Below are positions 4,047 through 47,505 of a stretch of 62,623 nt of DNA, one piece after another. Numbering within the stretch: the first letter of the stretch is position 1; each line of letters starts with the position of its first letter. The position numbers and the translations under genes were made by a program. The DNA lies in the NCBI GenBank assembly GCA_018399745.1, contig JAGYNZ010000001.1, forward strand, positions 101,948 through 164,570, read 5' to 3'. The notes below the pieces were generated by a model. The model did no database searches. It was not told where the DNA came from and saw only the letters and a program-made list of their open reading frames with translations. This DNA comes from Deltaproteobacteria bacterium. Lineage in GTDB: Bacteria > Desulfobacterota > Dissulfuribacteria > Dissulfuribacterales > UBA3076.

Positions 4047-4081
4047 AAAAAAACAGGGGCCTGAAAGGCCCCTGTTTTTTT
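4047..4081. terminator. Bidirectional rho-independent terminator
   Basis: A perfect nine-base-pair stem (ACAGGGGCC with GGCCCCTGT) around a TGAAA loop, flanked by seven A residues on one side and seven T residues on the other, so it can end transcription on both strands. It sits between the convergent protease and porin genes, where a two-way terminator is expected. Confidence 0.93.
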
Positions 4082-4102: not shown

Positions 4103-6361
4103 TTAGAAGCGGTACGTCACAAAACCTGACAGAGTGAACAATGAACCATCAAGTTCGCCGTACACGTATTCTTCCTGATCGTTATAATCAGAATACCTGC
4201 CGACAACCGTAAGCCCGACCTGATCGGTAATACTTACGTTTGTAGAAAGCTCGAACTCCCACATGATATATTCCAGGTCGGAATATTCATTGGAACCGTT
4301 GATATAGGTGAAGCTGTAGTCGTCCGTGCGTCCTTGTACCGAGAGCACAAAGGGATCACTGGTAAAGCCCAGATCATGGATATTGGCTGTGCCTTTGGTG
4401 AAGGAATATAAGGCTGAGACGTCCCACCTCTTAGGTATAAGGTTGGCATTGGCACCGACATAAACTGTATGGGCCTCGGTCTCATACTCGTAGCTGTCAC
4501 TTTGGCCTCCCAACTGGGAGGATCCGACGGAGCCAGCTCACCCATTGTAGAAGGCCGAACAGAACATGGCCTCATATTTGTCATAGAAGTAGTTATACCC
4601 CATATTGATCCCCAGTTTTGCCATCGGGGTATACATGACATTTACGCCGCCATTGAACATATCCTGTTCCCAGTCGCTCCCGCCCAAATCGCTGTTTTCA
4701 GCGAGTTTATAGTGCAGGTGAATGTTGGTGTTGATCTTACCGGTTGCCATCCAGTGCGTCTTGAATCTCATGTCGTGGACGGTTTCAGGCTGGTTGGACC
4801 TGTCTGCGGTCCTGACACCATAGACATATCGGGAGTAATCACTGTTGGGAGAATAGGTCCCTGGAGCAAACCCTAATGCCTGTGCCTCTTCCCAGGACGG
4901 GCACATTGAATCATGGAATTCATACGGGTCGTCCACATAGGTAAATGCGTAATCCGCACTAACTTTGAGACCCATCATGGGCCTCCAGTGACTGCCTATG
5001 GAGACCTCCTGGGTAGTGGTGTCATCGACCACATGGTGATACTCGGCATTTTCCCTGTCCAGATATTCAACTTCGTAACCCAATTTCAATTTCAGGTCTT
5101 GGAGGAGCTTCCATGCAAATTTGGCCTCAAGGGCGTATTCCTCCTCGTCGTAGGCTGAATATCTGTTAAAATCAAAACCCGTTCCCAGAAAATCCGCCCA
5201 GGTCTGTCCCACTCCGGCAGGGCCGCCGTCGCTGATAGACTCGACAACGTCGACAGTAACCTCATCCGCATCCATGTCATGGTATTTACCTTTCAGGGTA
5301 AAGCCCATGGTCTTGTTGATTTTCCAATGCCAGCCGCCGTTAAGGGCCCAGTAATCCACAGCCAGTTCCTTTTCGTAATTGCCGTACAGGACCCCGGCAC
5401 CGCTGTCGGAATCATTATTTGTGGCCCTTGAACGCACATAATTGAGATTGACTGTATTACCCGGCAAATCGGCCTTCATCTTGACCTTGTGGGACCATTT
5501 TTCCGATTCAGGGGTACGTGAAAAGGGTAGAGATCCGTTTGTATTGTCAAACTGTACTCGGGAATCAAACCCGTCCAAGGAACCCGCAGCTGTTCCGGGA
5601 TTCTGCGCCTCCATATACAGGTTTTGAGGCACATCGCTCCCGCTGTTAAAGGACCTGTACAGGAAATCATAGTTCAGGGTCATGGGTCCGATCCTGAGGT
5701 TTACCGAGGGATTCAATTCATTGGTGGTCTCATCTATGGCCTTGCTCATTCCCACTACGTGGCAGGATGCGCACTTGCTCATGGTCCGGGCCTGATCCAT
5801 GCCCTTGCGTTCCTCGAACCTGTGATTAAAGGTAAAGCTCAATCCAGGAATCGAAGGGACATTCAGTTTGGCCTCAGACTTCCATTCACTGCGGGTTATG
5901 CCATAGTCGTCCATGGAATTGAAATCCGTGTGATAGAGTGTGGCCCCCTGGCCGCCTCTGGCCAGACTGGCCAGAAGGTGATTAAGGTTATTGTGATCCA
6001 GCCGGTGATAAAACCGAAGATAATCGGTCTGAAGCAGCAGGATACGGTTAAAAATATCCAGATCGGCCCCGTATTCCTGATCATCACCATCCAGATAGTT
6101 TCCGTAGGCATCGATCGCCCCTCCATCCATAAAATAAGAGACCCTGCCGTCAAAGATCCAGTTGGAATTTTTTTCGGCTGTGCTGTCGTACTCAGCGACA
6201 CGGCTGCCTTCACCGTCCAGGTCGTTCATTGAAGCGCCGACGCTGATTTCAACATCCAGATTTTCAGGATCAAAATATGGTTGTGCGTCCTCTGCAAATG
6301 CCGAACAGGCAAGGCCGAGGGCTATGAACAGGCTCATTAAAACAGTTGTAGTTATTTTCAT
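4103..6361 (-). CDS. MtrB/PioB-like outer-membrane beta-barrel, candidate selenoprotein (GSU2204-like)
   Basis: A 752-residue frame with an N-terminal signal peptide cleaved near AFA-ED, many alternating amphipathic strands, and a terminal Phe (TYRF), the classic outer-membrane barrel ending. One heme-binding-type CASCH motif lies near residue 200. A UGA occurs in frame at 4538-4540 (codon 608). The same frame stays open beyond it for 144 codons of equally barrel-like sequence, and a SECIS-like hairpin begins 13 bases after it, so I read the UGA as selenocysteine. I recall an NCBI family named GSU2204 CXXCH-containing (seleno)protein that fits, but could not check it. The start is ATG with a GGAGGTGA ribosome site. 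The gene lies 12 bases after the decaheme cytochrome, implying a porin-cytochrome electron conduit. Without Sec insertion the product would be a 607-residue truncated barrel. Confidence 0.82.
4504..4525 (-). promoter_or_regulatory. Putative bacterial SECIS element
   Basis: In the mRNA just after the in-frame UGA, GG pairs with CC, AU is bulged, CCUCCC pairs with GGGAGG, and the apical loop is AGUU. The loop begins 22 bases after the UGA. G is its second base and a U is bulged on the 5' side, as in SelB-binding hairpins. A further GCUG/CAGC pairing can close an outer stem. Loop distance, stem length and loop G agree with known bacterial SECIS rules; SelB binding is inferred. Confidence 0.68.
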
Positions 6362-6373
6362 ATCCTCACCTCC

Positions 6374-7390
6374 CTATCGAGTGAATACCATGCCCTGTCC
6401 GGACACGCTTTGAGAAGGCAGATCCGATCCGTGCACGTTCTGGTGACAACTGGTGCACTGTGTCAGAAAACCACGCTGCCAGTTATGTTCACCGGCCAGT
6501 TGATCGCCCCCGACGGTCTGTCCAGTGTTGGGATCAATTATGCCTGGAGGATAGCTGCCGCGCGGCTGCCCGCTGTAACGTGTGGAATGGAAATGGGCCT
6601 CATGACATTGCAGACACAGGAACGGCTCGTTCTGCACCAGCAGGTTGTTGGCTACTGTGCCGTGAGCATCATGACAGAAGGTACAGTCTTCAATCACAGG
6701 CTCGTGCTCAAACACAAACGGCCCCTGATAACGTGTATGGCATTTAAGACAGAGATCGTTCAGACGCTCATCTGTCTTGAGCATGCCGGATACGAGATTA
6801 TCCGTTCCATGTGGCGAATGACAGTCAGTGCAGCCCATCTTGCCTTCCCTGACGGGATGACGGGACATCAGATAGCCTTTGGACTTGATGTCCTGATGAC
6901 ACTGTCCGCAGAGTTCAAACTGGTCGGCGTTCCTGAGAAGGGTCTTCTCCTTGTTGTAGTGTATACTGTGACACTCAAGGCAGGAGACGTCGTCCTCTTG
7001 ATGGGCTGAACCGGCCCATGACATTAAGGCGCCATCCTGATGGCATGTGGTGCATACCGCCCCTACCTCTCCGCATTCAAGGCCTCCCTCGCCGAAACGA
7101 AGGATCATTTCAGGATCACCGCCTTGGTCCACGTGTGCAGAACCCGGTCCGTGACATCCTTCGCAGCCGATATGGTAACCGCAGACCTCGAATTGGGCGA
7201 TTCTCATGTGTACATTGTATTTATCATTGGCGTGATCTTCGTGACACTCCAGACAGCTTTCAGTGCCCAGATACTCGGCCCCAGGTGCTACTTCCGGCAC
7301 CTTGACCAGGTTGGATCTATGTTCCAGCATCTGTGCACAGCCGATCAGGAGACTCACACCTACTATGGCAAGTAAAAATTTTTTAACCAT
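6374..7390 (-). CDS. Decaheme c-type cytochrome lipoprotein (MtrA/DmsE-like, GSU2203-like)
   Basis: A 338-residue exported multiheme cytochrome. Ten CxxCH heme motifs can be counted: CLECH, CEGCH, CTTCH, CLECH, CGQCH, CTDCH, CLKCH, CTFCH, CLQCH and CTSCH. The N-terminus is a lipoprotein signal with lipobox LIGC (Cys18), so the protein is probably membrane-anchored. The start is ATG, with AAGGAGG twelve bases upstream. It is the first gene of an operon with the beta-barrel porin 12 bases downstream. In Shewanella and Geobacter such a decaheme protein plugs the porin and carries electrons across the outer membrane, and I infer the same here. No outer-surface cytochrome is encoded next to it. 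Confidence 0.9.
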   Translation of the reverse strand: MVKKFLLAIVGVSLLIGCAQMLEHRSNLVKVPEVAPGAEYLGTESCLECHEDHANDKYNVHMRIAQFEVCGYHIGCEGCHGPGSAHVDQGGDPEMILRFGEGGLECGEVGAVCTTCHQDGALMSWAGSAHQEDDVSCLECHSIHYNKEKTLLRNADQFELCGQCHQDIKSKGYLMSRHPVREGKMGCTDCHSPHGTDNLVSGMLKTDERLNDLCLKCHTRYQGPFVFEHEPVIEDCTFCHDAHGTVANNLLVQNEPFLCLQCHEAHFHSTRYSGQPRGSYPPGIIDPNTGQTVGGDQLAGEHNWQRGFLTQCTSCHQNVHGSDLPSQSVSGQGMVFTR

Positions 7391-46995: not shown

Positions 46996-47505
46996 ATGAT
47001 GAATCCTGAACCGGTGAAAACTTATAAAAAGGCGTTGCTGGTTATCTGTTTAGGATACATTCTGCTTTTAATCGAGACAACCCTGGGCCTCCCGTTTCAT
47101 TTCGGGCACATCCAACTGGATGGTCTGGTGCCTCTTATAGCATGGTATGGAATTCAACATCCTCTACCTGGCGGTATCCTTGCTGTATTGGGTTTAGGAA
47201 TCCTCAGCGAACAGATGTCAGCCATGCCGTATGGACTTTATATTTTAGTATATGCCGGTGAATATTTGATGATTCGATATATCTTAAATCAAATAGTGTG
47301 TGCCGCGGCATGGCAACAGATGATGCTGGTCTCGTTTTTGAGTATTGAAATCGTAGCGGTCCTTCTGATAGGCAGTGGTGCCACCGAACTCCTTTGGCCA
47401 TGGGGATTTGCGCAGGCCCTGCTCAACGGCATTATCGCGCCTTTATGGTTTTTTGTCTTTGATAAGGCAAATTGGTTTATTTTCAGTCAAGATATGCGAC
47501 CTTGA
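46996..47505 (+). CDS. mreD: Rod shape-determining protein MreD
   Basis: A 169-residue, highly hydrophobic inner-membrane protein with about five helices. The family is poorly conserved, but length, topology and position between mreC and mrdA identify it. The start of the transmembrane part (LLVICLGYILLLIETTLGLPFHFG) and DGLVPLIAWYGIQHPLPGGILAVLGLGIL match the pattern of a first periplasmic loop then a Gly-rich helix. A 199-base gap separates it from mreC; it holds a CATGG/CCATG hairpin but no gene. Confidence 0.85.
   Translation: MMNPEPVKTYKKALLVICLGYILLLIETTLGLPFHFGHIQLDGLVPLIAWYGIQHPLPGGILAVLGLGILSEQMSAMPYGLYILVYAGEYLMIRYILNQIVCAAAWQQMMLVSFLSIEIVAVLLIGSGATELLWPWGFAQALLNGIIAPLWFFVFDKANWFIFSQDMRP

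Follow-up and report, generated by a model that had tools for sequence, protein, structure and literature searches.

The porin MtrB pairs with an extracellular cytochrome, MtrC. Its barrel has 26 strands, joined on the periplasmic side by tight turns (PMC7198977). In G. sulfurreducens, GSU2203 and GSU2204 were up-regulated on hematite and magnetite (PMC4070692). Another paper has called OmcK extracellular, with an adjacent periplasmic cytochrome reported as absent (PMC10553843); from these two papers together we infer that OmcL is GSU2204. In a 2026 review the GSU2204 family is listed among the selenoprotein families as an MtrB/PioB family with 1 Sec (PMC13188914). It may be noted that the text of the paper cited there for the family (PMC2398784) has no GSU, CXXCH, cytochrome or outer membrane in it, and that the word selenocysteine is absent from the main text of PMC10553843.

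Here we analyse a porin gene of this kind in a stretch of 62,623 nucleotides (the window) from contig JAGYNZ010000001.1 of a Deltaproteobacteria bacterium, where an original prediction had seen a candidate selenoprotein. The reading that we favour, with a probability of roughly 0.88, is an OmcKL-type conduit operon in which UGA 608 of the porin is decoded as Sec through SelB, tRNA-Sec and a hairpin. The Sec part of the prediction is supported, but the porin is not a new candidate because its family already counts among the catalogued selenoproteins (PMC13188914).

Results

The features of the locus are collected in Table 1. The read-through product of the porin gene has 752 aa with a single CXXCH, and its frame (6361..4103, minus strand) holds the TGA at 4540-4538 (codon 608) as the sole in-frame stop. 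As had been described, the frame then stays open for 144 codons and closes on Phe (...TYRF-TAA), and a ...YRF-type C-terminus recurs among the UGA relatives. The GSU2204 family CXXCH-containing (seleno)protein, named in the original prediction, is a real NCBIfam entry (NF041027), which the porin matches with 565.6 bits against a cut-off of 350. This match covers the pre-UGA part and ends at residue 607, and Pfam MtrB_PioB (PF11854) on the whole read-through porin spans residues 50-730, across the UGA; the C-terminal 144 aa alone gave no match to the NCBIfam models. The porin shares with the family the sequence, the CXXCH and the UGA directly past the model end, and with no difference found it is a member. 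The probable terminator sits past the second stop (TAA) and not past the UGA; weak Rfam sRNA matches around it were discounted, all being below gathering scores. Elsewhere in the window, a mechanical scan gave a frame at 47503 (+) with a TGA after 169 open codons that goes on for 639 codons, which is probably two separate ORFs.

Table 1. Features of the porin locus, in window positions
Feature	Position	Strand	Basis
Probable terminator, strong hairpin and U run	4047..4081	-	16 bp, -25.3 kcal/mol, z -6.1
Porin gene, MtrB/PioB-type outer-membrane beta-barrel, GSU2204/OmcL family	4103..6361	-	NF041027, MtrB_PioB, model
C-terminal barrel strand, residues 739-751, Phe end, coded only past the UGA	4106..4147	-	DSSP of model
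bSECIS hairpin CCUCCC/GGGAGG, loop AGUU	4506..4521	-	Fold, covariation, bSECIS constraints
In-frame UGA, proposed Sec608	4538..4540	-	Same alignment column UGA in relatives
CASCH c-type heme-binding motif, residues 197-201, loop of strands 7-8	5759..5773	-	Both Cys and His invariant in alignment
Decaheme c-type cytochrome, GSU2203/OmcK family	6374..7390	-	NF041028 427.9 bits, cut-off 325

Between the gene of the decaheme cytochrome and the porin start downstream of it lie 12 bases. The cytochrome has a lipobox-like LIGC at the N-terminus, scores 235.4 bits with the DmsE-family model TIGR03508 (cut-off 192.2), and finds its closest solved relative in chain A of the Mtr complex 6r2q (E 1.1e-43), which is MtrA. 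In each of the 23 named loci inspected, the ORF next upstream of the porin is rich in CXXCH, with ten CXXCH motifs in 22 of them and six in the one that is cut by a contig end. No gene for a third, MtrC-like extracellular cytochrome was found beside the operon in the stretches inspected. The two genes would make up an operon for an electron conduit across the outer membrane, of the GSU2203-GSU2204 (OmcK-OmcL) type, with the first product as the putative decaheme MtrA/DmsE-like wire and the second as a 26-strand MtrB-like barrel that would sheathe the wire and carry one heme motif of its own.

The AlphaFold2 model of the read-through porin (23-row alignment, mean pLDDT 74.4, pTM 0.70) is an MtrB-like barrel in which we counted 26 strands by hand. 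Foldseek on this model gives 6r2q_B (MtrB) as the first match (E 1.3e-23, TM 0.66/0.76), the next being at 1.3e-10. Strands 22-26, the C-terminal strand included, are coded past the UGA, and therefore no complete barrel would be expected without selenium decoding. The C-terminal strand with its Phe end (739-751) is the probable BAM beta-signal. In the model, Sec608 is in loop 21-22 and CASCH in loop 7-8, and on counting strands from a periplasmic N-terminus, which is how the sides were assigned, the long loops including these two appear to face the extracellular side. The Sec had been described as near the heme motif; CASCH is in fact 407 residues before Sec608 in sequence, and what the two loops share is the probable face. 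The Sec608 loop has pLDDT < 50, and the model defines no Sec-heme distance there.

In the alignment of the homologues, one column is UGA in 36 of the 43 relatives that form the first set, and the other 7 have Cys (2), Gly (1), or Ser, His, Arg or a gap. Most members of the second, named set also have UGA (among them a Nitrospirae MAG, a Desulfuromonas MAG and the isolate Thermodesulfatator autotrophicus), and five Aminicenantes have Cys. The Cys forms of both sets (L049, L051, L078, L079, L080, L081 and L091) fall on two branches of the homologue tree, which needs at least two separate changes. For 21 pairs of close relatives the dN/dS past the UGA is 0.03-0.40, similar to the pre-UGA part, and by this measure the porin is under purifying selection past the UGA. 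Comparison of the homologues shows translation to run through the UGA, at a residue that is interchangeable with Cys.

All of SelA, SelB, SelD and tRNA-Sec, for which the original prediction had proposed a search, were found in the window's own genome, and the SelD (L093, contig C2 of G000) itself has an in-frame UGA, in GAGUASK. SelB scored above cut-off in 30 of the 34 UGA-form genomes inspected as opposed to 0 of 5 Cys-form Aminicenantes by hand tally (hypergeometric P about 2e-4, by hand and uncorrected for kinship). SelB over cut-off was not found in four UGA-form MAGs, of which two are less than 90% complete (G024 and G029), G026 is 90% and G057 94% complete. The homologue check proposed along with that search gave UGA at the column, or Cys in Aminicenantes genomes without SelB, and from this distribution Cys replaces Sec where SelB is missing. 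One close relative from the window's own family (L035/L070, G009) carries Gly (GGA) in place of the Sec codon with SelB present in its genome; Sec is therefore not indispensable there, and this Gly form is a natural loss of Sec.

Three further copies deserve mention. The Cys-form paralogue L051 has a TGA at codon 575 of its frame, at an otherwise invariant Arg and with the strong hairpin absent, which is probably a nonsense mutation and a useful negative control. The porin gene of Thermodesulfatator autotrophicus (L071) has a TAA at 2950-2952, ahead of the conserved UGA and hairpin, which is a sequencing error or marks a recently broken copy. That of L052 (G002) is in two pieces about 1.8 kb apart whose matched regions overlap briefly, as after an insertion.

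The hairpin CCUCCC-AGUU-GGGAGG has a 6-bp stem 17-32 nt past the UGA, with 22 nt from UGA to loop, and a lower GG/CC extension widens it to 4525-4504. Its place is as described earlier, but the bulged U also noted then, at position 16 past the UGA, is not conserved (T in 20 of 41 sequences, A in 16), and two of the three closest relatives (L019 and L022) have lost the lower GG/CC pairs. Taken by itself, the window hairpin does not stand out from shuffles (z about -1.0 to -1.3); the selenoprotein case rests on comparative evidence. A hairpin is present at the same place in 41 of 41 distinct UGA genes. When 33 UGA sequences are aligned in one register, 92.4% of the cells pair and the covariation score is 0.337 versus 0.123 in shuffles (0/500), with slid structures dropping off. 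The stem pair at position 20, which involves the third base of a Gly codon, is AU in 15 cases, GC in 8, CG in 7 and UA in 2, so that a synonymous base tracks its partner. The loop is one base shorter in the window's own clade. The median fold energy at the site is -3.9 kcal/mol for non-UGA homologues versus -9.3 kcal/mol for UGA genes (kinship uncorrected), and in the Gly form L035, with GGA where its relatives have TGA, only a weaker fold is left. A SECIS check past the UGA, also proposed earlier, was made with published bSECIS constraints (loop 3-9 nt, stem 4-16 bp, 16-37 nt from the UGA, G within the first two loop positions, MFE <= -7.5; PMC13188914); the window hairpin (AGUU loop, 6 bp, 22 nt, -14.2 kcal/mol) and those of 39 of the 41 relatives with UGA lie within them. 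The comparative data show the hairpin to be a conserved RNA structure. UGA 608 would be decoded as Sec by SelB and tRNA-Sec under the direction of this hairpin, and the porin UGA is almost certainly read as Sec, as in dozens of related bacteria.

Discussion

A porin gene in decay, with a true nonsense mutation or an assembly error, would also show an in-frame TGA, and broken copies do exist in the family (the extra TGA of L051, the TAA of L071, the split gene of L052). Yet dozens of independent genomes have the UGA in this column, dN/dS is as low past it as before it, the hairpin covaries and the terminator-like hairpin comes after the second stop, which leaves decay a very small chance. It is likewise hardly credible that the UGA stops the porin and a second protein starts downstream, e.g. 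at TTG 4513, from which a 136-aa ORF is mechanically listed, as those homologues that have Cys, Gly or Ser in the column code one continuous barrel, the downstream part amounts to five strands of the 26-strand barrel, and such a split would need no SECIS-type hairpin. We reject all three of these readings (pseudogene, assembly error, split gene) because of conservation, dN/dS and covariation.

For the role of Sec608, which the original prediction suggested might be a redox or metal ligand, our preference is tentative and stays short of even odds: Sec/Cys608 may be a free selenolate or thiolate at the outer mouth, acting as a metal or substrate ligand or as a one-electron relay with no obligatory selenenylsulfide, and in that capacity it would sit where electrons leave the heme chain. 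Four of the five Aminicenantes Cys forms have the 608-equivalent as their only Cys beyond the CXXCH, apart from one extra Cys that the probable signal peptide holds in three of these four; the fifth has one further Cys downstream. Since the Cys forms are usually without another non-heme Cys in the mature protein, a partner thiol would not be obligatory. A reversible Sec608-C601 selenenylsulfide (C-x6-U) could serve as a thiol redox switch to tune or sense the conduit. This would suit the presence of C601 in most Sec forms, but C601 is missing in the Aminicenantes Cys forms as well as in L021, L030, L038, L047 and L048, and in the Gly form it is kept with C487, suggesting a structural C487-C601 disulfide; we consider the switch unlikely. 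C487 and C601 usually co-occur and are both absent in the Aminicenantes forms, which fits a structural pair with Sec608 left free. That Sec608 is the axial ligand of the porin's own heme is less probable still: the Sec608 and heme loops are on the same putative face, but about 14 of the 26 barrel strands separate them, the CXXCH is retained in the Gly form, and the invariant H119 and H291, close to where strands 5 and 10 appear to end on the outer side, make better distal ligand candidates. Extending the free-selenolate role, it is conceivable though doubtful that the selenolate is the conduit's last redox or metal-binding site and that selenium supply, because the final barrel strands are coded past the UGA, also gates assembly of the whole conduit. 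If true, such gating would hold as well for the OmcKL conduits for which a role in interspecies electron transfer has been proposed.

Standard gene calling ends the porin at the UGA and drops its last five strands, because of which OmcKL-type conduits risk being misannotated or labelled as truncated. The comparative data point to an electron conduit that, in several bacterial groups, has a fixed Sec in a loop at its outer surface, a pattern that offers specific tests of selenium in extracellular electron transfer. Against the limited literature searched, novelty seems to lie in the topology, the covariation of the hairpin, the argument from the lone Cys and the connection of the selenoprotein family with the OmcKL conduits.

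To our knowledge MtrB has neither heme nor Sec, unlike the porin described here. The locus resembles the Shewanella MtrAB (PDB 6r2q, PMC7198977), whose MtrB is the top Foldseek match of the porin model, in having a 26-strand barrel that sheathes a decaheme cytochrome. With OmcK/OmcL (GSU2203/GSU2204 of G. sulfurreducens; HS1_RS02760/02765 of HotSeep-1, PMC10553843) it shares the gene order, a decaheme cytochrome followed by the porin. It differs from the OmcK/OmcL of that report in that the OmcK-family protein here also passes the DmsE (MtrA-like) cut-off, and so it may be the wire itself.
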